A stretch of DNA of 61,922 nt. It comes from a virus. Each line of letters opens with the position of its first letter. The first letter of the stretch is position 1. Positions 12,515 to 43,077 of this stretch are shown piece by piece. The stretch covers positions 1 to 61,922 of the IMG/VR virus record IMGVR_UViG_3300044673_000157. One strand, given 5' to 3'. The position numbers and the translations under genes are program-made. The notes beneath the pieces are model-generated. The model saw nothing but the letters and a program-made list of their open reading frames with translations, made no database searches and was not told where the DNA came from.

Positions 12515-14179
12515 ATGGCTGGTCTTGGATTTGGTTATGGGCTTGCGATGCTGGGAAACCAGATTGCCCCGGCGCAGCTGCGTGGGCGCAGGCACGAAGA
12601 GGAGCATCAGCTTAAAGAGCGCCAAATGGATGTTAATGAGGCTGCCGAGCGGCGAGCCGGTGAATTCTACGGTGAGATCAACCAGGATCGCAGACTCCAG
12701 CGGAAGAAGAGTGAGTTTGACGCTGAGGCTATCGTAAAAGCGGAAGAACTTATGCATGGCGGCACCCAAAAAGGAGCGACAGGAGGCAATGCGCCAGCGC
12801 CCGAAGCGGCCTCGCCTGACGTGACGAATGCTGAGCCTACATCCTCACTCGCGCCCGAGCCCGAAGCCCCCCAGGTGGATGTGCTAGGCAATGAGCTTAT
12901 CCCGGACGGAAGCGGTGGGTGGATGACTGCGCAGGGCACGCCGTCGGAGCCTCTGACCCCGGGCGTCGGCCGGTCTGGTGCGCCGCGCTCAGCTACGGTT
13001 ACACCCGGCGGCCAGAAGGGCGGAATGCCCGTTAAGACTGGTGGGGCTTTGCCAAAGGCCGCGCCCTCGGGTTATGGTGTGCCCGCCCCGCAAGCCCAAC
13101 CCGCCACGGCTTCGGCCAAGGACGAGACCCTGCTCCGTCAGGGCAAATCCCAGGTCGCTCCTGCCGAGGTCCAGGGCTACCAGACGCAGTACGAAACCCT
13201 TTCGGCCAATGCTGATGGCGTCGAGACGCGCCTCCAGGAAGCGCTCAAGTCCGTAGACCAGCGCTACAGCAATGACCCAACTATGGCCACCTATCTCAAG
13301 GCGAATATCATCGCCAAGGTGCGCCCCCAGATCGAGCAGATGAAAACCAACGCCGCGCGACTTAAGCAGGAGGGCCAGCTGGCCCAGTTCGCGCACGACG
13401 CCGGTGGATTCGCGGAGTCTATGCTGGCCCATATCGAGGGCGGCGGGAAGATTGACCAGAAGTGGATCGATGCCAATAAGGATGTTGCCGCCAAACTCGG
13501 CATCCAGCCCGGCATGCTGTGGGGTCTGCATAAGAACGACCAGGGTGCTATCGTCAACGGCCAGGGGTATGTGTACCCGCGCGGCGCACTGATGAAGATG
13601 GCCAACGCTGCCCTCCCCTGGAAAGAGCGTTTCGACGCCATGAAGGATGTCGACAGCATGTATAAGGTGCAGCAAGAGCTCGCTATCCAGCGTCAGCGCG
13701 TAGCCCAGGCCGATCCTCTTCGCGTGGAGAAATGGACTCTCGGGATGGTACGAGCTAATGATCAGAATTATGCCGCTAACGATTACGCCTATAGCAAGGC
13801 TAAGGAACTCTTCGCCAAGGGGACCGAGAAGGGCAAGCCCATCACCGTCAATATTGGCGGCAAGCCCGTCCAGGTCGATATCCCGCCCCAGTACAAGGAC
13901 GGCGAGGATTGGCTATATGGCATGAGCAAGAGCCAGGACCCCAAGGTCCAGGCCGCTTACGAGCAGATCATTCTTCCGCTCGAGCGCGCTCGCGCCCAGG
14001 CTGACACTATCGGCCAGTTCTTGGGTGGGTTCAGGGCCCGCGTCAAGGTGGCTAACGAGGCAACCGGAGAGCGCGCGGCCGAGGCTGCCGAGCAGCGTTC
14101 TTACGGGATGGCCAAGGGTCGGTCTGAGGCCGAGGCTGATATTGCCGAAGAAAGGCGTTCCAAACTTAACGCCAAATAG
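12515..14179 (+). CDS. putative internal virion (ejection) protein, 554 aa
   Basis: A 554-residue protein with a charged helical start, a Pro/Ala/Gly-rich linker (about residues 85-200) and a long helical region (about 205-554). It is the second of three consecutive ejection-type genes, upstream of the giant protein. No enzyme motif was seen. The long linker is consistent with a protein that unfolds to pass through the tail. Confidence 0.6.
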   Translation: MAGLGFGYGLAMLGNQIAPAQLRGRRHEEEHQLKERQMDVNEAAERRAGEFYGEINQDRRLQRKKSEFDAEAIVKAEELMHGGTQKGATGGNAPAPEAASPDVTNAEPTSSLAPEPEAPQVDVLGNELIPDGSGGWMTAQGTPSEPLTPGVGRSGAPRSATVTPGGQKGGMPVKTGGALPKAAPSGYGVPAPQAQPATASAKDETLLRQGKSQVAPAEVQGYQTQYETLSANADGVETRLQEALKSVDQRYSNDPTMATYLKANIIAKVRPQIEQMKTNAARLKQEGQLAQFAHDAGGFAESMLAHIEGGGKIDQKWIDANKDVAAKLGIQPGMLWGLHKNDQGAIVNGQGYVYPRGALMKMANAALPWKERFDAMKDVDSMYKVQQELAIQRQRVAQADPLRVEKWTLGMVRANDQNYAANDYAYSKAKELFAKGTEKGKPITVNIGGKPVQVDIPPQYKDGEDWLYGMSKSQDPKVQAAYEQIILPLERARAQADTIGQFLGGFRARVKVANEATGERAAEAAEQRSYGMAKGRSEAEADIAEERRSKLNAK

Positions 14180-14215: not shown

Positions 14216-17200
14216 GTGTCCGAAATGCCCGACGGCAAAAACCCCCTTGATGCCCTTAATTTGTCCGGCAATGACAAGGCTTGGTTCGATAAAATCCTTG
14301 GCGATCCCAGCGCGGATTCCGCGCGTAAGGCTGTCGAGGGCGTAACGGCCCCCGCGATTGAGCCCACCCCCATGCCCTTCATCCCGGCGCATACGCCAGC
14401 GCAGCCGGAGACTAAGCCGGTCGGAACCTGGGGCGAGAACGCCACGGACGCGGAGTGGGAGAAGCCGGTAGTCCCGTTCAATCCGTCTGCCCCACGCCCG
14501 GAAGATATCGGATCTGTCGAGCCCATGACGATGGACGAGTACGCTGATGTTCGGTCGGCCGATGATGCTCGACGTATGTCCGCCCCCTGGCGTGTATTTA
14601 CTGGTCTGGCGCACGGGGCAGCCGCGTCTATCGTTCATCCTGTGGCTTCAGTGAGCGGCCACGTACGGTCTATAGGGGCACTGCTGGAGGAAAGCGGCGT
14701 CCCCGGGCTGGTTGACATTGGGCACAGGATTCGGGGGGCTGGCGATACTATCCGCCCCGCGAAGTCCGAGGCTCAGCTTGCCGAATATGAGCCCACAACC
14801 AAGGCCGGCAAGGGCGGTGGATTCGTCGGCGGGACGTTAGCGATGATTCCAACCTTCGCTGCCATGGGGCTCCCTGGGTTTGTTGCATCTACGGTCGGTG
14901 GCAAGGAGAACGCCATCCTGGATACCGGCGGGACGGGCGCGCAGGCCATTGGTGTTGGGTTGGTCCAGGGCGCGAAGGACGCGTTGATTCTGAAGCTGGC
15001 GTCGATGGTCCCCATCCTGCGGACGACCAACGCCAAGGCTGCGGTTGCTGTTAACGGGGCGCTCAAGAATGTGGCCACGCTTGGCGCCATGAATACTACG
15101 ACCAATCTCGTAGATAAATACACATGGGATCCGAATCGTGGCGCGTTCGACGGAACGCTCGACGCACTATCCACAGGGTTGGCGTTGGGGATTCTCCATG
15201 CCCCGCAGGAGATCCGGCGCGCCAACTACCGCAAGCTGGCGTCAGAATACCCGGGCGGAGTTGAGCGGTTCATGGAGGCCCTCGAGGCCAAGCGCAGCGC
15301 ATTGGCCAAGGGCGAGTCTGAAGCTCAGAATATGGTCACCCTTAACGAGCAGGGCGAACGTGTGCAGTCATACGACCAGATGGCCTTCCGGCGGGTAAGC
15401 ACGGCTGTCGATGAGGCCCTCGCAACGGCCCGGGATTACAGGGACCATCTTCTTAAGTTGGGCAAAATCACGGAGGCCATGGGCAGCGGGGCGATGGCGG
15501 AACGCCCATCTGCGGACCAGGAAGCCGCGCCTGCTCCCACCCCCCTGGCGGTCAAGCCCATCGCTGCCGAGGCCCCAGCGCAAGTGGCCCCGATTGCTGC
15601 GCCGCCCAAGGCGAAGGTTGATGAGGCCACCGGCCGCACGGCCATGCAGCTCTCCACCGAGGCCGCGCAGGCTGCTAAGCCTCTGTCCGATATCCAACCC
15701 ATCAAGACTCACGCGAATGTCGTTCGAGTGACGAGCGGATACGGGGAAGCCAACAAGCCTGAGAACATTCAGGTCCACACTCCCGAGACTTCCCACGCCG
15801 TCGCCAATCGCGCAGCCGCCCAGTCGCTGTTCTCGGTGATGGCCGGCGCGGTCAAGGAGAGTGGGGTTGAGATTGACGATGATGTCAAGGCCACGCTGCA
15901 CAATGTAACTGACGGACTCTCTGCGCCCAACGGCGTAGCCCAGATCGCGCAGCGGTGGGGGCAGATGGGCGTGCCAGAGCCTGTTATCCAGGCATTGACG
16001 GACACGGCTGTCGAGCTCAAGAAGCAGGGGCTAGATATTAACAAGACCCCGCTCAATCCAGATACCACGCCTATCCCGGCTGGCAAGGCTGCGCTTCGCA
16101 ATATGACTTTCCTGACCGAGTTCCACAAGCAGCTCGCGGCTCGCGTCCAGGAGATGGGTGTCGATGCCCCTGAGTGGGCGCGCGGCGCTGTGGCCAAGAT
16201 CGGCAAGCTGGTCGAGCCTGGAGGCAAGTACGACACCGCATTCCGCAAGGGGCTCGGCCTGGAGCCACGCGAACCCGTGGCCGAGCATGCGCCCGTCCAG
16301 CCCATTGTGCAGCCGGTGAGTATCGGCAGTCTGAACAGAGCTGCCACGGAGGGCATGGAAGGGCTCACACAACAGGGCGTGATGTCCGGAGAAGGCCTCA
16401 CCCCCGGTGCGTCCGGAACCGAGGTCGTATCCAACGAGGAGCTCAAGCGCGCTGAGCGTGGCGACACTTACTATCGCGTTGATCGCAGCGGCAATGTCAC
16501 CCATCTGGGCCCCCAGCCTGATGCGCCCGTTCGCAAGGGCGAGGCCGTCATCATGGTGAGTGGCAAAACCGGCCAGCCCCAGGTGCAGAACAGCGAGGGG
16601 CTGGGGACCGATAAGGAAGTGCTGGCGAAGTTCGCGCCCAAGGTCATGGAGGTAGTCAATGCCCAAGCAGGAGAAAGATCTAACCGCACCGAAGTCCCCG
16701 TCCAAGAAGGTCCAAAGCCTCGTCCTGAGCGGCCCAGCGTACCGGCAGGCGAAGGCGAAGGCCGAACTGCTGGGGCTCGGGCCGATGAAGCCCGGGGAGA
16801 GCGTGGAGGATTACTGGCAGAGGCTGGTGGCGCTGATGCAGCCGGGCTAGCGGCCCTTCCGCCCGAAGTCCGTGCGCGCCTGGAGGCTGCCCATTCCGCC
16901 GTATCGGCCCTCCTCGAGCGCGAGCTCGGCGTGACGGATGTGCGCAGCCTGCACGACGAGATGCTGGACATCATGAACGTCCAGGTCAAGCCAGGGGAGG
17001 GTGAGGTCGGTGGTCCGGGCCAGAATGTCTACGGGCCGTCCGAGCTTCTGTACCCCGTCGCCCGCGAGCTTCCAGGGTCTCCATACAAGCGCGTGTTGAA
17101 CCTGACCTCGGGCGTTTTCGTTAGCCCCGAGCTTGCCAAGGCGCTTGGCGTGCCGGCTCGTGCCGGCTACCCGATCCCCGGCAGTAGCGTCATGGCTGCC

Positions 17201-20200
17201 CTTAGCCTAAACCCTGATGCCTGGGGCCACAACAAGACGCTGCTGCGCTCGCTCGGCTTCGACGGCGTGGCCTATAACAATTCTATCGACGGGGTAGCTA
17301 TTGGAGATTTGTCCGAGCCCGTAGCGGCCACAGAAGAGAAGCCCATTACCACCGAGAAAGAGCGTGCCCCCGAAGCGCTGCCCAAGTTCAATCCCGAGAC
17401 CGGCCGCTTCTCGGATAACCCGTGGACGGGTCGATCGACTTCGCTGTTCGGTAATGTGTGGGGCAAGCGAGCGGGCGGGAGTTTCGGGTGGCTGAACGCG
17501 CCAGCGCGCGCGCGGGTTGGTATTAAATTTGTGGAACATGCTGGGGGGTATGCTGCCAGAACCGCAGACAACGCTAAGGCTGATGTGACGATTGCCATGG
17601 CTAAAGATTTTTCTACTGCCGGGGAGCGCCTAACGCGCAAAATGGCATTGCAGAATGGCAAACTATTTATAGAAATACCGCTTACAGTCTCAGGGCTGTC
17701 TGAAAACAGCGTGGCCAACGCAGCCAGGCGGATATCATCTCTCGGCAAGACGAGTGTATCCGTCAATATTGCCGGGAATGGCATTTATAGTCTCAATGGC
17801 AATCAGCCCAAGGTCGATGAGATTGTTCATCAATTCCTAAGCTCCCTTATTGCGCACCCCGACATGTCCGCCAAGGTATCTGGTATCAGGTCTGGTGGCC
17901 AGACTGGCGTAGATGAGGCTGGTATAAAGGCCGCAATCAAACTTGGTTTGCCAGCTACCGTGGTAGCCCCCAAGGGATGGCTATTTAGGGACGCATCGGG
18001 TAGGGATATCTCCAATGAGTTGGCCTTTAAGGCCAGGTTTGCCCGCGTGGCCGAACCCCAGAGCGGCAACCAGATTATAACCCCTCGCCCCGTCTCGAGC
18101 GATGTGCCGGATGCGCCTACCCATACCGTACCCATCGCCGATAAGGTCGAGCGCGAGCAGGCCATCGAGGATGGTCGCACGTTTGCGAGTACACACTGGG
18201 TTACGACTGACGATCTACTGAAGCTGGCGCGCAATGCCGGTGTGCCCCTTGGCGATGACGAGATCAAATCGTCTGGCATGCCGGGCATCACTACCGCTGA
18301 GTATAAGCAGCTGGCCGATCGTGCCGCGGTGGAGTCTGGGGAGGGTGTCGCTAAGCCTGCCCCCACCATGGCCCCGGCCACCGGAAAGTCCTACGGTCCC
18401 GGCGAACTTGTGCATAAATTCACCGCATATGCACGCGACGGCGGGTTCGGTGATCTGGTTTTCTGGTTGTCGAAGAATCCTGATTTTGTGAGCGATATTG
18501 AGGAGGGCGTTCGTTACGGGCGTGGAGAGTTCCGCGGCGTCGTCAAGGCGCTCCTTTCCCGGGAGGAGATCCGCCCAGAAGACCGCGATCGGTACTTCCG
18601 AGAGTTGATGAATGCCGGAGAGCTCGGCTCTAACGACAAGTATCTTATGGCCCGCAACGCACTCAACCGCATGGTCATGGAGGCCGTCGACGGGAAGCAG
18701 GATACCAAGGGCATCTCACGCGCGATGATGAGGCCAGAGCTGAGTAAATCGCATGCAGATATTCTTGCGCTAGCTGCCGTGGCAGCGGCCAAATACCAAC
18801 CTGATTTCTTCTCTGTATCCGAGAAGCGTCTCGCCGATATCCGCCAGCGCGAGATGGAGCGCGGGGCTTACGACGAACCAAAGGACGGTAAGCCAGTCGA
18901 GCCTGTTCTGTCTGGCCACTTCGATGTCCGGCCCGACACACCCAGCGGCTTCTCCCCTACGCTTGATGTATACAACAATCCGGAAGTTGCCCGCGAGTCC
19001 AGGGCGGGTGCCGGATTTGAGGCCCCGGTCCGCGATGAATACGGCGAGCATCTGCCCGCCCAGCCCGTCCTCAACAAGCTGGTGAACGAGGTCGCCAGCC
19101 GCGGCGGGTTCACCAAGGACGCGTTGCGGGCAGCGGGCGTAGAGGCTATGCCCAAGATGCAACACCAAGCCTCCTACGAGGCCGCTGTTAACACTGTCGA
19201 ATCGAACCCGAGGCTCGCCGCCGAGATCACGACTAAGGGGCGCGGGATCCTGCTCGATATGTCCCGCATGCCGAAGGAGCTGGTTCGCAACGGCTTCGCG
19301 ACCTTGCTGCTTAATCATTTCTCTGGCAATGGCAAGAAGCCATTCCATATCGATGCCGAGCGCATTGACCCCAAGTTCGAGAAGTATTACACCGTCGGCG
19401 AACAGACCGTCCTTCAGGTGAACCAGCATGGCGATGGCTTACCCGTGCCACAGCACGTTATGACCACGCGAGAAATTGGGATCATGCTGGACCATAACCA
19501 TCCCATGCACAACCAGACGGTCGAGAACGTGATCGGGCGGCTGGCTTCCAATGAAGATCTGTGGCTCAGTTCGACGCCCATGAAACGCGTATACCAGCGC
19601 GCGGAAGATGGTCGACGATCCAGTGTTCTTGTCCCTCGCGAAACCCTGCTTGGCAATTATCGGTTCAAGACCCTGACCGCCGGTCTTGTACCGCAGGTTG
19701 CACTTGGTCAGATGCCTAGCCACATTCGCGTGTCGGACCCCAAGACGATCCGCACCTCTGTGCGTGAAGCTCTGGATGCGCTCCGTAATGCTGAACCGGA
19801 TTGGTATCAGCGTCTCGGCGATGACCTTATGGATCAATATACCATGGGCATGACCATCTTGGACGCCGCAAAGTCCGCCAAGAAGGGAGATTTCTCCAAG
19901 CTCCTCGGGCTGCCGGAGAACAGCTCAGAGTCGACCGCGGCCTCCCTCGCCTTCTCGGATAAGGCCAACATGGCCAAGCTCGAGAAGTGGACCTCGGATC
20001 TCCTGAAGCGCCTTAACTCCAATACGGATCCAGAAGCCGCGCGCGCGCGAGCCCTGGCTCGTGAGATCGATGCTGCGCTGCGCAAGGTTAAGAGCGATGT
20101 GCTGTGGAACGAGATCTTCCCGGTCGTGCCTGAAGGTGGGGTCGCATCCGCCATCCCCGTGGCAATTGCCGAGACGTCCGTGCGCAACAAGGAACAGTTT

Positions 20201-23200
20201 CTCGATGCGTTTGATGCGCTGACCGAAGGCGACGACAGCCCCAGTCGCAAGTTCGCACGCAGCGTCTTCGAGAAGATCCATGACTCGTTCTTCGAGGAAC
20301 TCGGCATCCACGTCGACACTGACCCCAGTCTCGATGGCGGTCTGTTCGACGTCATGCATCGCATCATTAAGATGTCCAACAGTCTGAAGTCCACGGCCAG
20401 CGCGAGCAAGGTGGCATGGCTGATGACGCACGAGCTCGGTCACGCATTTACGGCTTACATGGGCATCCCCATGCAACAGGCGTCGCACCGCTGGTTTATG
20501 ACTGAACGCGCCAGAGCCATGGGTGGCAATCGTCGGTTCAATGATGTCATGCAGTCAGATTCTATCGACCCGCGGGACGGTAAGAGCATCATTTCTGTGG
20601 CCGATAACTTCAACGCCAATGGCAGTCTGGGCGAGATTGTCATCCCGGCCAGCGGCGAGCTCGGGTCTGCGGCCCTTCTCGCTACCTATCCAGACCTTGC
20701 CCCCCATATGCGAGAGGTGCTGGACGAGGATGGGAACGTTGTCGGCCATCAACTCAGCCGCAAGTTCGCCGGCAGCAACGGGTATCGATACCTGAACCAC
20801 GGCGAATTCATCGCCGAGACCTTCAAGGACGCACTGCACGAACACGCTCGCGGCATTCAGCGTAAGGGCGTGCTGCGACCCAACCTAGACGTTGGTGACC
20901 AGGGCCGGTATATGACTCGTCTCAAGATGAACCCAGACGCCCTGGCGTCCATGGGTTCTCTGCACCGTAACATGGGACGCATGATCGACGCCATGGTTGG
21001 TAAGAACACCATGCGGAGGTTCGTCGGCTACCTGGTCAACCAGGGTGGGACCTACAGCGAGGGCCTGCGCACTGGGTCCGCTGATATTGCGTTCCCCGAG
21101 GCTCAGTGGCGCGGGAACGACCGTGACGTATTTAACGGGAAGGTGCAGGGCGGGCCCCCCATCAGGCCCAAGCCGTTGACACCGGAAGAACTTGCCCGGC
21201 GGCAGCACGAGACGGCTACCAATATTGGCGCGTTTATCAACAGATGGTTCCGCGCGCCATTGATGTCGCAGCTGAATGCGGCGAGTGTTAGTGAATATTC
21301 TCGATCTGCCGCAGACGGGATTAGGTCTATTCTCGGAGAGCTGGGCGTCAACTACAATACCTATACATCGTCTCTGTACGAGTTTCAGGACCGAGCTGCC
21401 AGCGCGGCGGAGGTTGCCACTGCGACGAGACACGCTGTCTCCAGGTTGGCCGAGGCATCCCCCGAAGCCAAGAGGGCTGCGGCCGACGGATTTGCCACGT
21501 CTGTCAAGATCACCGACCCTGCTACCAAGGCTGAATACCTGGTGTCTCTTGACCGCAATGGCAAGTTCCAAGACGTCACCCCGATGTCCAACATTGAGTC
21601 GTGGGTCAACTTCGAGAAATCCGGCAAGTTCACGGGCGATCTGGCCGGCCTCGAGACCCCGCTCAAGGAGCTCAACCATATCACCTGGTCGCAGCTGAAA
21701 TGGGCTGTGGCGGATCTGGCGCAACACCTTGGGGTTGACCCCGAGCACCTGGCCGACTTCGATAAAGAACTCGAGAAGGTGCCCAACTACCTCGTTCATT
21801 CACACGTATCGAAGACAGAGGGGGCTCCCTACTCTAGCTCGGAATCCGCGACCGGGGTGTACGGTTCTGCCGTGGACCCAGCGGTAGATATCGGCATCAA
21901 CGCCAGCATGCTGGTCAACCGTAAGTTCAATGACTATGGTGAAGCAGTTGACGCTGGTCATTTCCCGACACACACCAATGCCGTGAATCTGGCCGTCGGC
22001 GGCATCGCCAACACCCTTGGCGTCATCGCTCGGCTGAAGGCCATCTCTGGTCTCCTCGATCGCGGCCTTGCCGTCGAGTCCGTCACTGACCACCCCGAAA
22101 CCAAGGCCTGGCCTACGCTCCGCATGTCGACCGTCGGACTTCCTGACGAGATGTTCGGCCCCGCGTTGCACAACATCCGCGTCCACCCGGATGCCATGCG
22201 GGTTCTCGATTATGGGTTCCGTCCAGAGCTGTTATCGCGTAGCGAGTTCGGGCGCTATATGTCCCTGGCCTCCGGCATGCTCAACGCCACGCAGCTGTTC
22301 GGGCTTAACGATTACGTGAATGGCATGGCCGCGGTGTCTGGGTTCTCGTCCCTACTCGGCCCTGAATACAAGACCTCGGCGAAAGATGCCAAGTTCATAA
22401 AGAACCTTACCACTGGCGCCAAGGTTGTCGGTGGTGGTCTCGCTATGGGCGCACTAGCGTCTGCCGGCATGGGCCCGGCTGTTGTCTTGGCTGGCGGTGT
22501 TGGTGCGGCTATTACCGCCGCCGCGGCTGTTCGGGCCATTCGCGGGTTCAAGTCCATGACGGCGGGCACCCTTCAGGCCATCACTGAGGGCAAGCGGACG
22601 ATGAACCTCATCCAGTCTCGGGCCGCGCTCCACCCTGAGAGCCTATCTCAGGCCGACCGCAACCTTATTGGGTTCTTTCAGGCTGGCAATATCAAGCTGA
22701 CGGAGAGCAAGACTCAGATCGAGCGCATGAGGACCATGACGCCGGAGCTGATCCGGCAGGGCAAGATGGGCCAGGCGACGGCATACTGGGCCGCTAACAT
22801 CTTGAACAAGCCTGTGCAGGTCCAGGAAATCGGGGTTGGGGGCGTTGGCGGCAAGCTGGTCGCTAAGATCGGCATGCTGGCAATGTTCGCACCTCACGTC
22901 ATGGCCCCATATACAGATGCCAATGGGGACGTTGATTTCTCCAACAAGGAGCTGCTGCACAAGATCTTTGAGCTGTCTGATGATATGGACAATCAGGTTG
23001 GTGCCATCCAGTACCGCAACCTACACATGAACCCAGCTATCGTATCCGGAGCAAAGCTGGCTTTCCGAGCGTTCGGCTTCAGATATACGACCGAGCGAAT
23101 GAAGGTTTTATTTGCAGCAGACGTTATGAATAATCTGGCCTACATCGGGAGCCGGGTGGCTCCGTCCATCGGCACTTCGTACATGGCCTTCCGGGCTGCC

Positions 23201-24451
23201 GCCACTGGCGGGGGCACTGTTGGGCCGAATACTGTCAATGGTACAGTATTAAGCGTAAATGGCGTCAAGCAGGGGCTGGCATGGGGCTGGCGCTCCGGTT
23301 CTCTCGCCCTGATGAACACGCTCCTAACCCTCTCCCTGGCTGCGCGGGTCGAGGCCATGATGAGCCATGTCGTGTGGCCCGGCTCCAACTATACCCAGAG
23401 CCGCTTCGCCGTAGAGACCGCCAGGCAGTTCGGCATGGCAGTGGGTAGCAATAAAGCGGGGAAGGCTTTTGAGGGCCTGCTTTCGGTGGTCCCGCCCGAA
23501 GGCTCGTCACTCTATGATGCCATGCGCCATATCGTTTACGAGACCGTCCTGGCCGCCCCGCAGGCCGGTGAGAACGACCCCAATACTGGACGCCCACGCC
23601 GCATGATTTTCCCGGGCGCCATGTACGCCAGGAATCTCGCAGAACACCCGTTGGCCCTTAGCCTCGATCCCGAGGATCAGCTGAAGGCATCCATGCAATG
23701 GGCTGGCTCTGGCAAGTCGCCGGCCTTATCTGCCATCCATGATGTTTTGCGACAAAAGGACTCTCTTGGCCGACCCCTCGGATTCGGCGAGCCCCTGCGC
23801 AATATTAAACAGATCGAGGCATTCAACAAATGGTCCGAGACCCAGCCGGAAGACTCATGGTCCCTCGGCGTCAAAGTTCCGCTGCGGAGCGCGGCCCACT
23901 CTATCAGCAGCATTCCGCCCCTGTTCGTCCGTTCTATTGACAACATGGTCCAGGGGAGAGAGCGTATGCTGGCCATCAGTCAGCTGCTCGGAGGCCGCAC
24001 CATGCCCCCCGAGGCGAGCCTTAATGAAGCCGAGCGGCTTGCGTTCTCCAAGGCCATGAACCGAGTCGGTGGGGACCGAGACCAGGCGTCGGTAGCGTCT
24101 GGGCGCAAGCTGGCCACAGCTAAGGAAGCCCTATCTCGTGATGGCGATACCACCGAGCTCGACCGTCTCAAGGCCGAGGGGGATATTACAGAGAGCCAGT
24201 ATCGGACTACGAAATCTGCATACGTGGACAAACGCGGAGTCCCGCGGCCCCCGGTTGTCAGGTTCTTGCGCAAGCTAGGCAAGCCGAATAGCAAGGCCTG
24301 GAAGGAAGTTTACCTACTGTCCACGCCCGAACAACGAACCCAGATTAAAGAATATTTATCTGATCCACGTGGATCTGGATATACGAAAGAATATAAAGCT
24401 ATAATCAACGAGGCACTTGACTGGATGGCCGCACAGGACAGGAAACGATGA
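14216..24451 (+). CDS. giant multidomain internal virion / polyvalent-type protein, 3411 aa
   Basis: Third and largest ejection-type gene, probably carried in the head and injected. A Gly/Ala-rich hydrophobic region spans roughly 125-330. Near 1013-1018 is LGFDGVAYNN, the end motif of ART-PolyVal-like domains. Residues 1226-1233 (SGGQTGVD, then an APKGW stretch) match the SLOG/cpYpsA-type Rossmann motif. H2072-E-L-G-H2076 is a zincin metallopeptidase motif. A hydrophobic Gly-rich stretch lies at about 2738-2775. Such giant proteins combine channel building with host-directed enzymes. The start may be GTG 14216 or ATG 14225; neither has a clear ribosome-binding site. The next gene is coupled by ATGA. 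Confidence 0.85.
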   Translation: MSEMPDGKNPLDALNLSGNDKAWFDKILGDPSADSARKAVEGVTAPAIEPTPMPFIPAHTPAQPETKPVGTWGENATDAEWEKPVVPFNPSAPRPEDIGSVEPMTMDEYADVRSADDARRMSAPWRVFTGLAHGAAASIVHPVASVSGHVRSIGALLEESGVPGLVDIGHRIRGAGDTIRPAKSEAQLAEYEPTTKAGKGGGFVGGTLAMIPTFAAMGLPGFVASTVGGKENAILDTGGTGAQAIGVGLVQGAKDALILKLASMVPILRTTNAKAAVAVNGALKNVATLGAMNTTTNLVDKYTWDPNRGAFDGTLDALSTGLALGILHAPQEIRRANYRKLASEYPGGVERFMEALEAKRSALAKGESEAQNMVTLNEQGERVQSYDQMAFRRVSTAVDEALATARDYRDHLLKLGKITEAMGSGAMAERPSADQEAAPAPTPLAVKPIAAEAPAQVAPIAAPPKAKVDEATGRTAMQLSTEAAQAAKPLSDIQPIKTHANVVRVTSGYGEANKPENIQVHTPETSHAVANRAAAQSLFSVMAGAVKESGVEIDDDVKATLHNVTDGLSAPNGVAQIAQRWGQMGVPEPVIQALTDTAVELKKQGLDINKTPLNPDTTPIPAGKAALRNMTFLTEFHKQLAARVQEMGVDAPEWARGAVAKIGKLVEPGGKYDTAFRKGLGLEPREPVAEHAPVQPIVQPVSIGSLNRAATEGMEGLTQQGVMSGEGLTPGASGTEVVSNEELKRAERGDTYYRVDRSGNVTHLGPQPDAPVRKGEAVIMVSGKTGQPQVQNSEGLGTDKEVLAKFAPKVMEVVNAQAGERSNRTEVPVQEGPKPRPERPSVPAGEGEGRTAGARADEARGERGGLLAEAGGADAAGLAALPPEVRARLEAAHSAVSALLERELGVTDVRSLHDEMLDIMNVQVKPGEGEVGGPGQNVYGPSELLYPVARELPGSPYKRVLNLTSGVFVSPELAKALGVPARAGYPIPGSSVMAALSLNPDAWGHNKTLLRSLGFDGVAYNNSIDGVAIGDLSEPVAATEEKPITTEKERAPEALPKFNPETGRFSDNPWTGRSTSLFGNVWGKRAGGSFGWLNAPARARVGIKFVEHAGGYAARTADNAKADVTIAMAKDFSTAGERLTRKMALQNGKLFIEIPLTVSGLSENSVANAARRISSLGKTSVSVNIAGNGIYSLNGNQPKVDEIVHQFLSSLIAHPDMSAKVSGIRSGGQTGVDEAGIKAAIKLGLPATVVAPKGWLFRDASGRDISNELAFKARFARVAEPQSGNQIITPRPVSSDVPDAPTHTVPIADKVEREQAIEDGRTFASTHWVTTDDLLKLARNAGVPLGDDEIKSSGMPGITTAEYKQLADRAAVESGEGVAKPAPTMAPATGKSYGPGELVHKFTAYARDGGFGDLVFWLSKNPDFVSDIEEGVRYGRGEFRGVVKALLSREEIRPEDRDRYFRELMNAGELGSNDKYLMARNALNRMVMEAVDGKQDTKGISRAMMRPELSKSHADILALAAVAAAKYQPDFFSVSEKRLADIRQREMERGAYDEPKDGKPVEPVLSGHFDVRPDTPSGFSPTLDVYNNPEVARESRAGAGFEAPVRDEYGEHLPAQPVLNKLVNEVASRGGFTKDALRAAGVEAMPKMQHQASYEAAVNTVESNPRLAAEITTKGRGILLDMSRMPKELVRNGFATLLLNHFSGNGKKPFHIDAERIDPKFEKYYTVGEQTVLQVNQHGDGLPVPQHVMTTREIGIMLDHNHPMHNQTVENVIGRLASNEDLWLSSTPMKRVYQRAEDGRRSSVLVPRETLLGNYRFKTLTAGLVPQVALGQMPSHIRVSDPKTIRTSVREALDALRNAEPDWYQRLGDDLMDQYTMGMTILDAAKSAKKGDFSKLLGLPENSSESTAASLAFSDKANMAKLEKWTSDLLKRLNSNTDPEAARARALAREIDAALRKVKSDVLWNEIFPVVPEGGVASAIPVAIAETSVRNKEQFLDAFDALTEGDDSPSRKFARSVFEKIHDSFFEELGIHVDTDPSLDGGLFDVMHRIIKMSNSLKSTASASKVAWLMTHELGHAFTAYMGIPMQQASHRWFMTERARAMGGNRRFNDVMQSDSIDPRDGKSIISVADNFNANGSLGEIVIPASGELGSAALLATYPDLAPHMREVLDEDGNVVGHQLSRKFAGSNGYRYLNHGEFIAETFKDALHEHARGIQRKGVLRPNLDVGDQGRYMTRLKMNPDALASMGSLHRNMGRMIDAMVGKNTMRRFVGYLVNQGGTYSEGLRTGSADIAFPEAQWRGNDRDVFNGKVQGGPPIRPKPLTPEELARRQHETATNIGAFINRWFRAPLMSQLNAASVSEYSRSAADGIRSILGELGVNYNTYTSSLYEFQDRAASAAEVATATRHAVSRLAEASPEAKRAAADGFATSVKITDPATKAEYLVSLDRNGKFQDVTPMSNIESWVNFEKSGKFTGDLAGLETPLKELNHITWSQLKWAVADLAQHLGVDPEHLADFDKELEKVPNYLVHSHVSKTEGAPYSSSESATGVYGSAVDPAVDIGINASMLVNRKFNDYGEAVDAGHFPTHTNAVNLAVGGIANTLGVIARLKAISGLLDRGLAVESVTDHPETKAWPTLRMSTVGLPDEMFGPALHNIRVHPDAMRVLDYGFRPELLSRSEFGRYMSLASGMLNATQLFGLNDYVNGMAAVSGFSSLLGPEYKTSAKDAKFIKNLTTGAKVVGGGLAMGALASAGMGPAVVLAGGVGAAITAAAAVRAIRGFKSMTAGTLQAITEGKRTMNLIQSRAALHPESLSQADRNLIGFFQAGNIKLTESKTQIERMRTMTPELIRQGKMGQATAYWAANILNKPVQVQEIGVGGVGGKLVAKIGMLAMFAPHVMAPYTDANGDVDFSNKELLHKIFELSDDMDNQVGAIQYRNLHMNPAIVSGAKLAFRAFGFRYTTERMKVLFAADVMNNLAYIGSRVAPSIGTSYMAFRAAATGGGTVGPNTVNGTVLSVNGVKQGLAWGWRSGSLALMNTLLTLSLAARVEAMMSHVVWPGSNYTQSRFAVETARQFGMAVGSNKAGKAFEGLLSVVPPEGSSLYDAMRHIVYETVLAAPQAGENDPNTGRPRRMIFPGAMYARNLAEHPLALSLDPEDQLKASMQWAGSGKSPALSAIHDVLRQKDSLGRPLGFGEPLRNIKQIEAFNKWSETQPEDSWSLGVKVPLRSAAHSISSIPPLFVRSIDNMVQGRERMLAISQLLGGRTMPPEASLNEAERLAFSKAMNRVGGDRDQASVASGRKLATAKEALSRDGDTTELDRLKAEGDITESQYRTTKSAYVDKRGVPRPPVVRFLRKLGKPNSKAWKEVYLLSTPEQRTQIKEYLSDPRGSGYTKEYKAIINEALDWMAAQDRKR
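16659..16850 (+). CDS. nested small gene inside the giant gene, +1 frame
   Basis: A 63-residue reading frame lies wholly inside the giant gene but in another frame. It begins at ATG 16659 with GGAGG (16647-16651) at good spacing. By eye, third codon positions in this frame are mostly G or C, while the giant frame here shows weaker third-position bias and a low-complexity Pro/Glu/Gly linker. The product is helical, with a charged N-terminus and a SVEDYWQRLVALM pattern near its end. It may be an overprinted gene or the relic of a gene fusion. Confidence 0.5.
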   Translation: MPKQEKDLTAPKSPSKKVQSLVLSGPAYRQAKAKAELLGLGPMKPGESVEDYWQRLVALMQPG

Positions 24452-26370
24452 CCGATTTCAAGAGGCATCTCCCGCACGACACCTCCCTGATGGCGCTTCA
24501 TGTGTCATTGGGGAGGCTGTGGGATGCGCTCGAGGCCCAGGGCGGCAGCGGGACTGCTGTGAATGCACCAGCCAGAACTCAAATACTCGGGGCTTCTGCT
24601 AGCATCACGTCGCAAGCCGGCGGACCATCCTCTCGGCATAACGATTTGTCCGGTATCCAAGGTGGAGATGTCGATAATTACTATCATCTGACACGCGCGG
24701 AGTGGCTTGGCACGGGAACCGGGGTCGTGGCCCGCCAGGATAGCCCTGTATTCACGGGGGATCCCGCTGCCCCAACGCCGCCGGTCTCTGATGCTGACAC
24801 CAGTATCGCCAATACAGGGTGGGTTAAATCTCAGCCATCATGGCCCAATAGGGCGGCTGTCGCTGACACTGATTATACGATTGTCGGGACCAAGGGCTTC
24901 ACGGTCGCATATACGTCACTCACTGCCACGAGAACAGTGACCATGCCGGCCGCCACCACGGCTGGCCAGATAATCCACATCATCGATGAATCTGGCAATT
25001 GTTCGCATACCAACATTATTCGTTTGGTTTCAGGCGGGACGGACAGCATCGAAGGTGAAGCCACCTATGCACTGGATTATAACCACGCCTCCATCAAGGT
25101 GGAGTCCAATGGCGCTGGGGTTTGGGTAATCGTCACCAATCCCGGGCAACACCTATCTGCCGGTGCGCGAGTCCAACCGAGCCTGACCGATCTCGGCACG
25201 GGGTCCATTACCATCGGAACTGGTATATATGCGGTGTATAGCAACACCGATGGTATTGGCCGCATCCTGACACATACGCTCGCCGGAGGGACCTTTGCCC
25301 TTACGGACGGTGTGGTGAACTATGTGGTGGCGGACCATTCTTCCGGATCTCCTGTAGTAAGGGTCACGACAACCGTATCCGAGATTCAGGAAACCACCAT
25401 CATCCCCATCTATACTATTTATCGAGAAGGAACGGTCCTACATATTTTCAACTGGGACCAACTGGGTGACGCACTAGCCAACAAGATGCACAAAAGCATC
25501 GTAAAGACCCAGCGGTTCCGGCTCGAGTCCGGGCTGGCTATTGGCGAGGCCGCGACCCGCACCGTGACGCTCACTGCCGGGACCGTATGGACCGGGGCTG
25601 TTGGCACGACCATGCCGGCCATCCGCTCCGACACCGGCAGCATGTATCTCATGTATCATGTGGCCGGCGTATGGACTAAATCTGCGCCCATCGCCCAGTA
25701 TAACAATACCCAATATGATGATGGCACAGCCCTACAGACCCTGCCGGGCGGCAAGTACGCCGTCAATTTCGTATATCGGTCGGTCGGTCAGGACAATGAA
25801 TTGTTCCTGCTCCTTGGTGCCGGAGCCTATTCTCTTGGCCAGGCTCAGGCGTCCCAGCCTCCGGCCCTTCCGCCGATCATCTCGTCCCACTGTATTTTGG
25901 TTGGCCGCATTATCGTGAACCAAGGCGGATCTACTGCCACTCAGATTGACTCATCGTTTGTGACACAATTCACACCGACCGCGGCGTCTGATCACAATAC
26001 GCTAGCTAATCTACAGGGAGGTGCGGCGTCTGAATATTACCATTTAACGAGTCTTGAATATACAGGTGTCGGGACGGGTGTGCATGTTAGGGTTAATGCC
26101 CCGTCCGTTACAGGGACCTGGAGCTTTTCTGGTCAAATCAATAGCGGTAATACAACGGCCTCAACATCAACTGCGACTGGAGCCATCGTGACCCCGGGCG
26201 GCATAGGATGCGGGGATTTCTTTACGGGTAAGTACAGATCTTCCGATGGCACGGCCGGGCTGAGTGCAACCAAAACATTTTATGCAGCATCCAGCTCCGG
26301 TGCCATTGCCAATATACTCAATACCGTCACAATAAAGGACGGTATTATTACGTCGTGGACCCAAGTCTAG
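24448..26370 (+). CDS. tail fibre protein
   Basis: A 640-residue protein coupled to the giant gene (ATGA overlap). Two copies of a known fibre repeat occur: HNDLSGIQGG...YYHLT near residues 70-90 and HNTLANLQGG...EYYHLT near residues 515-535, each followed by a GTG-V-R and a TG tract. Between them are beta-rich segments. These repeats are typical of trimeric tail fibres that contact the host surface. The last 100 residues probably form the tip. Confidence 0.75.
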   Translation: MTDFKRHLPHDTSLMALHVSLGRLWDALEAQGGSGTAVNAPARTQILGASASITSQAGGPSSRHNDLSGIQGGDVDNYYHLTRAEWLGTGTGVVARQDSPVFTGDPAAPTPPVSDADTSIANTGWVKSQPSWPNRAAVADTDYTIVGTKGFTVAYTSLTATRTVTMPAATTAGQIIHIIDESGNCSHTNIIRLVSGGTDSIEGEATYALDYNHASIKVESNGAGVWVIVTNPGQHLSAGARVQPSLTDLGTGSITIGTGIYAVYSNTDGIGRILTHTLAGGTFALTDGVVNYVVADHSSGSPVVRVTTTVSEIQETTIIPIYTIYREGTVLHIFNWDQLGDALANKMHKSIVKTQRFRLESGLAIGEAATRTVTLTAGTVWTGAVGTTMPAIRSDTGSMYLMYHVAGVWTKSAPIAQYNNTQYDDGTALQTLPGGKYAVNFVYRSVGQDNELFLLLGAGAYSLGQAQASQPPALPPIISSHCILVGRIIVNQGGSTATQIDSSFVTQFTPTAASDHNTLANLQGGAASEYYHLTSLEYTGVGTGVHVRVNAPSVTGTWSFSGQINSGNTTASTSTATGAIVTPGGIGCGDFFTGKYRSSDGTAGLSATKTFYAASSSGAIANILNTVTIKDGIITSWTQV

Positions 26371-34409: not shown

Positions 34410-34554
34410 CCAATCTCCTTTGATCGCGCTCTTGTTTGGCTTCAATCACAGCCTGATGGACCTTGGCCCTAAAGGCCGCCTTGCGCTCGGCGCTACGGGC
34501 TCGCGACTCCGCGAGCTTTTCTCTATTGTACTTGTAACCGAATCTATTCTGCAT
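34366..34554 (-). CDS. small basic protein, 62 aa
   Basis: Start 34554 has AAGGAG upstream and overlaps the end of the glycosyltransferase gene by 11 bases; its end overlaps the VRR-NUC gene. The product is very rich in Arg, Lys and Glu. Function unknown, possibly nucleic-acid binding. The overlaps on both sides make it less sure. Confidence 0.5.
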   Translation of the reverse strand: MQNRFGYKYNREKLAESRARSAERKAAFRAKVHQAVIEAKQERDQRRLDGRRSAKRDACQKG

Positions 34555-35521
34555 CCTCAATCTCCTTAATGATCTGGGCAGAATGCGTGAAGCCAGGAGA
34601 TAATCGCAATGATTCCTGTGCGAAGAGTTTAGCCTCCCTAAGTCGCCCCATGGCTGCGAGGGTAATAGCCGTTCTGTTGAGTGCAAATACGCTCGTAGGA
34701 CACGCTCGAAGGACATCCTGATATTGGTGAAGTGCCTGCTCGTAATCTCCGCGCTGATGGGCCAACTCACCCGCGATAATCGCAACAGAAAATGGAACTG
34801 GATCCCCGATGTCCGAATATGCTTCGATCCCGGCGGCTACGTCCTCCCATGACCCGGCGATCCTGGCATGGGAAATGTAGTTAAAGATACACTTAGGATC
34901 GAACGAGCGCTCAAGATAGTCTTGTCTCGCCAATTCCAGATAGTGGGCGGCCTTGCCGCGCTCGTGGGCCTTATTGACCTTCCCGTAATGCTTGATAATA
35001 AAGTCCGACCATCCAACAGATAGCCCGGCTTCTGGCATCAATTTCTCGTGCAGTCTTCCTTCATAATGTAGCCCGATATGGTTCCTGAATAGGCGACCCC
35101 CGATGTCATCATATCTGTAAGGGTATTCATCGTCGTATGGTTCGGGCGTGTGCCCCAACATGGCTGCGTTGCCATCCATATAATAATGACGAATTTTGTG
35201 TTCATATAAATCATGTGGACCTTCGACCGAGCGCCTAATAATTCCATGATCCTGTCTGGCAAGAGCCTCGTCAGCGTCAAGGACCAAGATCCAATCACCC
35301 ACACAGTATTTGAGCGACTCATTCCTGGCCGCCGAGAAATCGTTGCACCACTCGAACGAGCTAGGCACAACTCCGTTTTTATGCAAGAGTTCGATAGTGC
35401 CATCCACTGATCCGGTGTCCACAATTACCATTTGATCAACCAGTCCGCGAACGGAATTGATGCAGCGTTCGATATTCTCGGATTCATTACGAACAATCAT
35501 GGCGAGAGATATTGTGCTCAT
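34544..35521 (-). CDS. family 2 glycosyltransferase with TPR-like C-terminus
   Basis: A 325-residue protein. Residues 1-90 form a GT-A core (SLAMIVRNESENIERCINS, VDTGSVDGT, and D82-A-D84 for metal and sugar nucleotide). The C-terminal part (about 220-325) holds TPR-like helices (HQRGDYEQALHQYQDVLRA). GT2-TPR proteins add sugars to proteins or other acceptors. In phages, GT2 enzymes modify DNA, virions or host sugars; the target here is unknown. Coupled to the upstream gene by ATGA. Confidence 0.75.
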   Translation of the reverse strand: MSTISLAMIVRNESENIERCINSVRGLVDQMVIVDTGSVDGTIELLHKNGVVPSSFEWCNDFSAARNESLKYCVGDWILVLDADEALARQDHGIIRRSVEGPHDLYEHKIRHYYMDGNAAMLGHTPEPYDDEYPYRYDDIGGRLFRNHIGLHYEGRLHEKLMPEAGLSVGWSDFIIKHYGKVNKAHERGKAAHYLELARQDYLERSFDPKCIFNYISHARIAGSWEDVAAGIEAYSDIGDPVPFSVAIIAGELAHQRGDYEQALHQYQDVLRACPTSVFALNRTAITLAAMGRLREAKLFAQESLRLSPGFTHSAQIIKEIEDAE

Positions 35522-40421: not shown

Positions 40422-41509
40422 AATGTATCCACATCGAGATAGTCATCGGCGCCCACGAGGATATCCCCATAGCCACCAACTACGTTGATTTTGTGCTGCT
40501 CGCACACCTCGTCAATGATGCAATCAAGGCACATCAAGACGGTATCCGAGCCCCCGTAGCTTAAGGCCACGTAAGAAAGATCGTCGATCGGATTCTCGTG
40601 CCCACAATACCAGCAGAAATCGCACAGCTCATCATCGGTCGGTTCATCCTGATGTCGCGTATGGGGCGTACGCTTTACCTCCCTGGTTGCCGGGAGATTG
40701 GACTTTCCGCTGAAGTTCTGTGAGCTCCAGCCGAGTGTCATGGGCGTGTATGACCTGGTATGCATGTTGTAATAATAGTCATCATCGTCCTGAAAATGCC
40801 CCCTCCAGGAGTTGGGCGTATAGGCGGTGGCCTTTCTAGCAGGGGCCGGCTGATACACCTTGCCCCATCCCGGCTGGCAGAACACGTCCTCGTCCACTTC
40901 CCCGATTGAGTTTGGCGTGAGGCCGACCCGCTTGACCAGAACGAGTTCCAGGTCAACTTTGGTGCTGCAAATGACCGTGCCCCAATCGAACAGGGCCTGG
41001 TGGAGGACCTGGTTGTGGCGGTAGATCATGGGGTCATCATTGACCGTGACCAACAAGGCGCATGACCCGCTTACCTTGGCCATGCCATCTACCCAGCCGT
41101 CCTTGAGGATGGACATCCCGATGAGGCCGGAGTCAACCGCATGGTCCTTCTCGGTAAAGCCCTCGACATCAACCACGCCATTGTGGGCCAGGGCGATATT
41201 CCCCATCAAAAAAGGATGAGCATTGTCGGTCGTCTTCCCCCCGTGTGTGGCAAATCGAGTGTGACCGAACAGATAGGTCGGCAAGCCGTCCCCCCTGTAC
41301 TTGAACCCGGCTAGATGTTCGTGCAGGGACGTGTAGTCGCTCGAATATTTGCCGAGCCCCTTGATGGGGTCGATACCGCTGCCCCAGGCACCCCAACTAT
41401 GACCGCCGCGATCGTCATTCTCTTCCATCAAGAGGGAGAAGATCGTCTTCATGAGCGCAATTGGCATGAGATCGGGACGCGTAACAACGATGCCGGAAAG
41501 ACCGCACAT
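40418..41509 (-). CDS. class II glutamine amidotransferase
   Basis: Start 41509 was chosen because the mature protein must begin Met-Cys: Cys2 (MCGLSG) is the nucleophile. AGGAG precedes it. Residues 81-90 (FGHTRFATHG), N96-A-H-P99 and H109-N-G111 match the GAT-II active site. The remaining part (residues 230-363) holds a Cys-rich zinc-ribbon-like segment (CDFCWYCGHEN, then CLDC). It is expected to release ammonia from glutamine and pass it to the adjacent amidoligase. Confidence 0.85.
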   Translation of the reverse strand: MCGLSGIVVTRPDLMPIALMKTIFSLLMEENDDRGGHSWGAWGSGIDPIKGLGKYSSDYTSLHEHLAGFKYRGDGLPTYLFGHTRFATHGGKTTDNAHPFLMGNIALAHNGVVDVEGFTEKDHAVDSGLIGMSILKDGWVDGMAKVSGSCALLVTVNDDPMIYRHNQVLHQALFDWGTVICSTKVDLELVLVKRVGLTPNSIGEVDEDVFCQPGWGKVYQPAPARKATAYTPNSWRGHFQDDDDYYYNMHTRSYTPMTLGWSSQNFSGKSNLPATREVKRTPHTRHQDEPTDDELCDFCWYCGHENPIDDLSYVALSYGGSDTVLMCLDCIIDEVCEQHKINVVGGYGDILVGADDYLDVDTL

Positions 41510-43077
41510 TAAAGATCTCCTTTCGCCAATTGAGTGACGGCCGCAAGCTGATCGCCAGTACCTGTTGCGGGGTAGCACTTGACCCCAGTCCCGAATGATA
41601 GGTAGAGATCCATCCCGCCGCCGTCTTCCGCGGCCTCAAGCGTGGTATCTCCAACGGCTGAAATCTGCGCCCCATCTGGCTTAACATAATCCGTAGAATA
41701 CAAAGAGGATTCACTAGCGATGGCGGCCACCTGGATATCGGTAAACCTGAACGCCGTCTTCTTATGGCTGAACGGGTTGAAGCGCTCGCTCATGCGGGAA
41801 AGATCCCGAATGCAGACGTCGGAAAGGCCGATGAGCTCTCCCAGCTTGAGCGTTAGCTCTCGGCGCACATTCCCGCGACATAGATCAGCAAGCGCACAGA
41901 ACTGATCCGTCGCATCCTGGTTGAGTTGGAGAGCGCCCTCGTCGGTCATGAGACAGGAGTCGTAATAGCGAATCAATTTCTGGCTCAACTCGGCTCGCGC
42001 CATGGTGTAGCGTACGCTATTGCTGCTTGGCCAGAGCCTGAATTCGATGGTCCCGATCGTCCGGACGGCAATAGACGGATACGAACTCGTGCCGTAGATA
42101 TAGGCCATCTCGCAGGCCCCGTATTTACCCATGTTCTTTTCACGAACTGATGGCCTATCACAGCAATAACCGCCGCCTCGTCTGCTCGACGAGATGTACT
42201 CACTACATATGGTGCTCATGCAGTTGAGCATGCGAGTAGCCGCTTGTTGGATCGCTCCCGGGATCTTATCCACAGTATATCCATCCAGGAACAGGCGCAG
42301 GAATCGACTGGAAACATGCATGTGGAAACCGCACGACGGGTGCTCGGGGCCGGGGGAGAAAGTGCCATCCGCGAACGGCGCATAAAACATCCGAATGATG
42401 TCCTCGATTTCTTTACCAGACGCTGGCGATGAGACGATTTCTTTAGCGCTATATCCACTCATGGTCGCAATGCTGCCGTCATAATGGCACGTGAAGCGAT
42501 CCCTTGCCTTATCGGACTGGATGATGTGTGTATAAAGGGCGTCCTCATATGCGTTCCTTTCACCATTGCGCACTGGGGCGTGCTCAAACTCGAACCCTAC
42601 CGTGGGGGCAGAAAGGAATCTATCCGTGGCCTCGCCCACAAAGATGCGGAAGCCGTCCCCGGCTGGGGCCAAAGAGCGTTCCGGCCGAGGCCTATCGTCG
42701 TTAAACCGATAGACCTCATCATCATCGTCGAAATAGCATCGCTCATCAACGCAATGTGTGCATGAAGACCCAAAGCCTTCAACATGGGTGTCGTAGCCAT
42801 AAAATTCATTTCCGCACAAAACGCACTGGAAATAGTCAGCCAGTTCCGGGTCGTCAATATAAATGCGCACATCACGCAGACGGTAGCCGGATTCCCCATC
42901 ATATCGCATTGTGATTTCCGCGATATCACGCGGGGCGCTTCTGCCCTCGTAGTCTGTGGTGATGTATTCTTCATCATTGTGGGTGCCGCAGAAATCGTAA
43001 TCCACGCCGCGATAAGTGATGATCGTGCTCTCGTTATCGTCCTCGGAGATAGAGCATTGACATACGTGGCAGGTCAT
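41509..43077 (-). CDS. amidoligase (GS-like COOH-NH2 ligase)
   Basis: A 522-residue protein. The N-terminal 120 residues hold zinc-ribbon-like Cys pairs (CHVC, CVLC, CTHC). The core fits Amidoligase_2 (glutamine synthetase-like): GFEFE 161-165, YDGS near 199-202, EIVSSP 213-218, CGFHMHVS near 249-256 and TIEFRLWPSS near 343-352. These supply the Glu and His ligands for ATP and metal. It would link a carboxyl to an amine in a protein, peptide or small molecule. Stop and GAT start overlap (TAATG), so the two are a functional pair. Confidence 0.85.
   Translation of the reverse strand: MTCHVCQCSISEDDNESTIITYRGVDYDFCGTHNDEEYITTDYEGRSAPRDIAEITMRYDGESGYRLRDVRIYIDDPELADYFQCVLCGNEFYGYDTHVEGFGSSCTHCVDERCYFDDDDEVYRFNDDRPRPERSLAPAGDGFRIFVGEATDRFLSAPTVGFEFEHAPVRNGERNAYEDALYTHIIQSDKARDRFTCHYDGSIATMSGYSAKEIVSSPASGKEIEDIIRMFYAPFADGTFSPGPEHPSCGFHMHVSSRFLRLFLDGYTVDKIPGAIQQAATRMLNCMSTICSEYISSSRRGGGYCCDRPSVREKNMGKYGACEMAYIYGTSSYPSIAVRTIGTIEFRLWPSSNSVRYTMARAELSQKLIRYYDSCLMTDEGALQLNQDATDQFCALADLCRGNVRRELTLKLGELIGLSDVCIRDLSRMSERFNPFSHKKTAFRFTDIQVAAIASESSLYSTDYVKPDGAQISAVGDTTLEAAEDGGGMDLYLSFGTGVKCYPATGTGDQLAAVTQLAKGDL

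Follow-up and report, generated by a model that had tools for sequence, protein, structure and literature searches.

A probable small gene nested out of frame in the linker of a giant phage virion-type gene

Nested genes are known in phages, few of them have been proven, and gene finders usually drop them. Among the systems described closely enough for comparison is Rz1 of phage lambda, a gene of ~60 residues that is wholly embedded in Rz in the +1 frame and occupies a mutationally silent part of Rz; the functional regions of Rz and Rz1 stay clear of one another (PMC5295617). A different arrangement is set out in a modular model of the hepatitis B virus (HBV) polymerase and surface genes, which draws on sliding-window codon usage and proposes that a short middle gene is the older one and that a new frame inside it became a spacer joining two modules (PMC8227390). 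A third group of interest is the polyvalent proteins of phages and conjugative elements, which are very long and multidomain, belong to the virion gene cluster and carry a zincin-like HExxH motif; the word "overlapping" is absent from that account, and the passages drawn on here mention no nested genes (PMC5512222). Searches of the open-licence literature on overlapping or embedded genes and on ribosome-profiled small proteins listed no title that deals with nesting inside a giant virion or polyvalent gene of a phage.

The locus described here shares features with each of these systems. It comes from an uncultured tailed phage and lies in a window of 61,922 nucleotides, the whole stretch of DNA that was analysed, which corresponds to positions 1 to 61,922 of virus record IMGVR_UViG_3300044673_000157. 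Like Rz1, the candidate nested gene is about 60 residues long and sits in the +1 frame inside a larger phage gene. Like the HBV model, the frame switch is read from codon usage in windows. Like polyvalent proteins, the giant host gene is very long and lies among virion genes, and with a SLOG domain and an HExxH motif seen by pattern it may be multidomain, a likeness that concerns the host gene only. Judging from codon statistics and initiation signals, positions 16659–16850 are probably a genuine dual-coding region, in which a complete small gene is nested out of frame in the linker of the giant gene.

The giant gene and the frame inside it

The features on which the argument turns are as follows.

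14216–24451, plus strand: giant gene of 3,411 amino acids, a polyvalent-like virion or effector protein as judged from PF12694, PHROG 10774, HExxH and the neighbouring virion genes
16648–16652, plus strand: GGAGG, a Shine-Dalgarno-like motif in the sequence, with a spacing of 6 bases to ATG 16659
16653–16655, plus strand: TAG in the nested frame, just 5' of ATG 16659, from the sequence and the open reading frame (ORF) list
16658–16846, plus strand: giant-frame reading of the nested stretch (residues 815–877), an Ala/Gly/Glu/Arg/Pro-rich linker by composition, with a third-position GC content (GC3) of 0.43 against a gene mean of 0.70
16659–16850, plus strand: candidate nested gene of 63 amino acids, ATG to TAG, from the ORF list, in the +1 frame relative to the giant gene 14216–24451

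The giant protein contains a YpsA-type SLOG domain at residues about 1110–1266, which scores above the cut-off for Pfam PF12694 and matches PHROG 10774, and a zincin-like (metallopeptidase-like) HELGH motif at residue 2072 that is identified by pattern only. Searches of Pfam and NCBIfam returned no match besides SLOG. Upstream of the giant gene are matches to portal, scaffold, coat and internal virion proteins, downstream is a tail fibre match, and a terminase match also falls in the late region of the record, which we take to be podovirus-type. Together, these features recall polyvalent proteins, and by this analogy the giant protein may be described as polyvalent-like.

Two other parts of this region have features of their own. 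The SLOG region, at 17543–18013, resembles proteins of Vibrio and Pseudomonas phages as well as a stretch annotated as a putative RNA polymerase in crAss-like phages, and its local GC content is lower than that of its surroundings, so it may have been acquired. The portal gene is apparently frameshifted: ORFs at 17–520 and 588–1565 align with adjacent parts of a single portal/connector profile, with a change of coding frame at about 515 (region 480–540), apparently through a sequencing indel, a real mutation or a programmed shift. Indel errors elsewhere in the record are therefore possible.

The initial annotation had described a 63-residue frame opening at ATG 16659 behind a GGAGG, set within a giant frame that reads as a low-complexity linker, and both parts of this description hold. 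The nested ORF ends with a TAG at 16848–16850 and is wholly contained in 14216–24451, on the same strand and in a different frame. Because the TAG at 16653–16655 precedes the ATG, the small frame does not extend any upstream out-of-frame ORF. The linker is the most compositionally biased part of the giant protein: in the 60-residue stretch from residue 821, a fraction of 0.90 comes from A, G, E, R, P, Q, S, K, D, T and N.

The start signals, an ATG with GGAGG at 6-base spacing, are evidence from the sequence alone, and they are rare in this setting. Of the 94 ATGs that lie out of frame in the giant gene, only two, 16659 and 16164, come with a strong Shine-Dalgarno (SD)-like motif, and the 51-residue frame that opens at 16164 has a codon score of -29 on the scale defined below. 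At least 5 bases matching AGGAGG precede 12 of the 35 tabulated main genes of the phage, as they do the nested ORF. The giant gene's own start has AGG only, making the SD of the nested ORF the stronger of the two. Around the nested start, predicted RNA structure is no greater than in shuffled sequences, and an Rfam search gave no match. A search for flanking repeats, as traces of insertion, yielded nothing beyond short repeats that chance would be expected to produce.

If both frames are used, ribosomes would load on the giant-gene message at the internal GGAGG, initiate at ATG 16659, translate 63 codons of the +1 frame and terminate at TAG 16848–16850, releasing a microprotein predicted to be basic, mostly helical and soluble. 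Ribosomes coming from 14216 would cross the same bases in the giant frame, producing a flexible Ala/Gly/Glu/Arg/Pro linker that joins two parts of the giant protein. The computed small protein is basic, with a pI of 9.6 and a mass of 6.9 kDa. AlphaFold, run without an alignment, models it as three helices and no strand with modest to low confidence (mean pLDDT 69.6), and models the giant-frame peptide from the same DNA as one long helix (mean pLDDT 72.8); because the two pLDDT values are similar, the structure models cannot separate the two frames. A ribbon-helix-helix regulator, an idea that came from reading the small protein by eye, found no support, as the low-confidence model has no strand and no family match was found up to E = 10.

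The nested ORF has its own frame, SD, start and stop, and codon signature switches locally across it. We infer that the small frame is translated and that it is expressed jointly with the late virion genes. As to function, an accessory protein made alongside the giant protein, such as a chaperone, a regulator or an early effector, would be the most natural guess.

Codon evidence for the small frame

GC content at codon positions 1, 2 and 3 is 0.67, 0.43 and 0.87 in the small frame, compared with 0.86, 0.67 and 0.43 in the giant frame of the same stretch and about 0.64, 0.47 and 0.70 in the giant gene as a whole. The initial remark that third positions look more GC-biased in the small frame was right, and the bias is strong (0.87 vs 0.43). 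Coding potential was then expressed as a codon log-likelihood score, small frame minus giant frame, in 63-codon windows. The small frame comes out ahead by +16.5 over 63 codons, the highest value among 21,238 windows taken out of frame across the main genes, where windows shifted off the nested ORF are also penalised by stop codons at both ends. Away from the nested region, the windows have a mean of -38 and a standard deviation of 13, the true frame normally being far ahead, and their maximum is +5.3, found in gene 34544–35521.

The position of the signal matches that of the ORF. A cumulative profile in which stops are neutral turns upward at 16652–16664 and is flat from about 16847, so that the onset of the coding signal coincides with the SD and ATG and its end with the stop at 16848. 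An unsupervised, seven-state frame segmentation that was blind to the ORF likewise picked out 16663–16818 as a small-frame segment within the giant frame. All nine of the further out-of-frame ORFs that were scored in the window are negative, at -15 to -89. Short stretches in which the +1 frame runs slightly above the gene's own frame also occur in 34544–35521 and 41509–43077, both on the minus strand; the ORFs in those stretches lack a strong SD, and their overall scores are -22 and -15.

A wider scan covered 768 nested ORFs in 26 records, with host ORFs picked automatically. Positive scores were obtained for 43 of the 768, among which the ORF at 16659–16850 ranks 15th. Several of the higher ranks reflect a doubtful picked host, and two of these higher-ranking ORFs, both SD-bearing, coincide with annotated genes of phage Jace (30595 and 37205).

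Giant-frame coding and alternative readings

Every ribosome that starts at 14216 must read the giant frame through the nested stretch, because there is no stop before 24451. Given the small protein, 14% of redraws and 9 of 178 ordinary gene windows leave the giant frame without a stop. When stops are scored near the mean, the giant-frame score lies above 99.98% of redraws (P = 0.0002) and above all 178 control windows (z = 2.65); when stops are scored as zero, z falls to 0.92 and 25 of the 178 controls are as high. The apparent giant-frame constraint thus depends on how stops are scored. Before these controls, the score stood at the 99.99th percentile among open draws. When the codons of the small gene itself are permuted, 18% of the permutations yield a giant frame at least as good, which is not significant. 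The small gene has G at 38 of its 63 third positions, and the giant-frame excess could also stem from this unusual preference for G-ending codons. Constraint on both frames seems to be favoured, short of proof.

The same region might be read, though this is unlikely, as two ordinary adjacent genes seen through two indels, arising either from sequencing or assembly errors or from real frameshift mutations, with no nested gene at all. The upstream gene would then end at TAG 16653–16655, and what looks like a small gene would encode the true N-terminus of another large protein, one that enters the giant frame before 16848. The order GGAGG-TAG-TCA-ATG does resemble an ordinary operon junction, and the portal gene of the record is also apparently frameshifted, at about 515. 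However, two compensating indels would be required within about 200 bases, the first no more than about 15 bases from the TAG, since coding in the giant frame continues to about 16640–16652. The giant frame would also have to be open by luck, at the frequencies given above, and to beat all 178 controls by luck, and the end of the signal would still coincide with the stop at 16848.

Chance provides a further account, which we regard as quite improbable: a purine- and GC-rich, low-complexity linker could yield an open, coding-like +1 frame. When the giant protein is redrawn with synonymous codons, the +1 frame remains open 91% of the time, so ORF length alone carries no weight, and local AT skew is high. 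The coding signal is harder to obtain in this way, as none of 20,000 synonymous redraws reaches the small-frame score and a codon-correlation difference of the observed size is found in none of 502 other windows. A stricter control, in which local codons are permuted among equal residues so that the odd codon content is kept, still reaches the score in 64 of 20,000 permutations. The other low-complexity linkers of the giant protein lack such a signal, and chance would also have to place an SD and ATG exactly at the signal onset.

Very improbable is a +1 frameshift product modelled on programmed +1 shifting aided by an upstream SD, in which a shift after 16655 and an end at 16850 would give a truncated form of about 876 residues with a small-frame tail: the offset is indeed +1 and the SD-like GGAGG lies just upstream, but known +1 sites (prfB, antizyme) carry a stop or slow codon at the shift point, where the giant frame has no stop or obvious slow codon, and with an ATG ideally spaced from the SD, direct initiation is the simpler account.

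Frame age, relatives and known systems

Taking the nested small gene as the preferred reading, the initial annotation had left a choice between an overprinted gene and two genes fused through a third. The nested gene is well supported by codon statistics and by having an SD, start and stop of its own, whereas for the relative age of the frames there are only hints. Small-frame codon usage correlates with that of the phage at r = 0.50, which is typical (51% of true windows are lower), whereas the giant frame in the nested stretch reaches r = 0.27, with 8% of true windows lower. A Williams test of this difference over 63 codons gives a one-sided p = 0.07, which is not significant.

The codon signature of the small frame is the one normal for this phage, so the small frame may be the older of the two, with the giant gene as its read-through. 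The evidence leans towards an older small frame that entered the giant gene by insertion or was captured between its parts, and it leans away from classic overprinting, in which a new small frame arises on an old giant frame. Looking for traces of former gene ends, we found no giant-frame stop to end the upstream part and no SD-preceded start just after 16850. That the region is a living fossil of fusion, with two phage genes joined by read-through of an intact, still translated small gene, is a tentative suggestion from the sequence that we hold to be rather doubtful.

The small protein is an orphan. Searches with tblastn against phages and against plasmids, up to E = 1, detected no homologue. 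Pattern scans for the small protein matched 57 stretches in IMG/VR and 380 in genome contigs, none of which was confirmed. A hand-relaxed motif scan of viral contigs picked out three loci that carry the same 1,359-residue reading frame, which were rejected as the similarity is local only. The small protein has no family match and no fold match, and a sequence search of solved structures returned only chance-level matches.

For the giant protein, no relatives beyond the SLOG region were found in viral contigs, genome contigs or phages, in searches from which very near records were possibly left out. The phage search retrieved 84 records, all through the SLOG region, covering at most 8% of the query among the matches listed (40 of 84). 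Neighbouring genes were also used as starting points. None of the 80 loci kept in the coat alignment, and none of the 15 loci from the scan with 24448–25104, has the giant or the small protein; queries with the terminase and with 12515–14179 reached no relative of either. On one short viral contig, a related coat protein lies ~7 kb from a relative of the 24448–26370 protein, compared with ~21 kb here. Given this shorter spacing, related phages may have no giant gene at the corresponding position.

Set against the known systems, the locus is unusual in that the inner frame has a better coding signal than the outer one, a hint that the small gene was swallowed by the giant one and not born inside it. 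Lambda Rz1, a proven nested gene that served as a control for the same method, scores -12.7, a value that 46 of 5,000 redraws reach, so its codon signal is weaker than that of the nested ORF (+16.5). The two also differ in kind, as Rz1 is described as an outer-membrane lysis lipoprotein in a small host gene, whereas the product here, encoded within a giant virion-type gene, would be a basic orphan that looks soluble. For a small gene inserted into or captured in a linker, the HBV polymerase/surface model is the best parallel. In contrast to the phage, HBV is small and reverse-transcribing, has conserved relatives and carries a longer overlap; here relatives were not found and the age test gives p = 0.07. 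If the small gene was indeed swallowed, the locus would show in concrete terms how multidomain phage proteins can be lengthened with no gene lost. If the fusion is true as well, the locus would be a tailed-phage counterpart of the hepatitis B polymerase/surface bridge, suggesting a route by which giant phage proteins grow.
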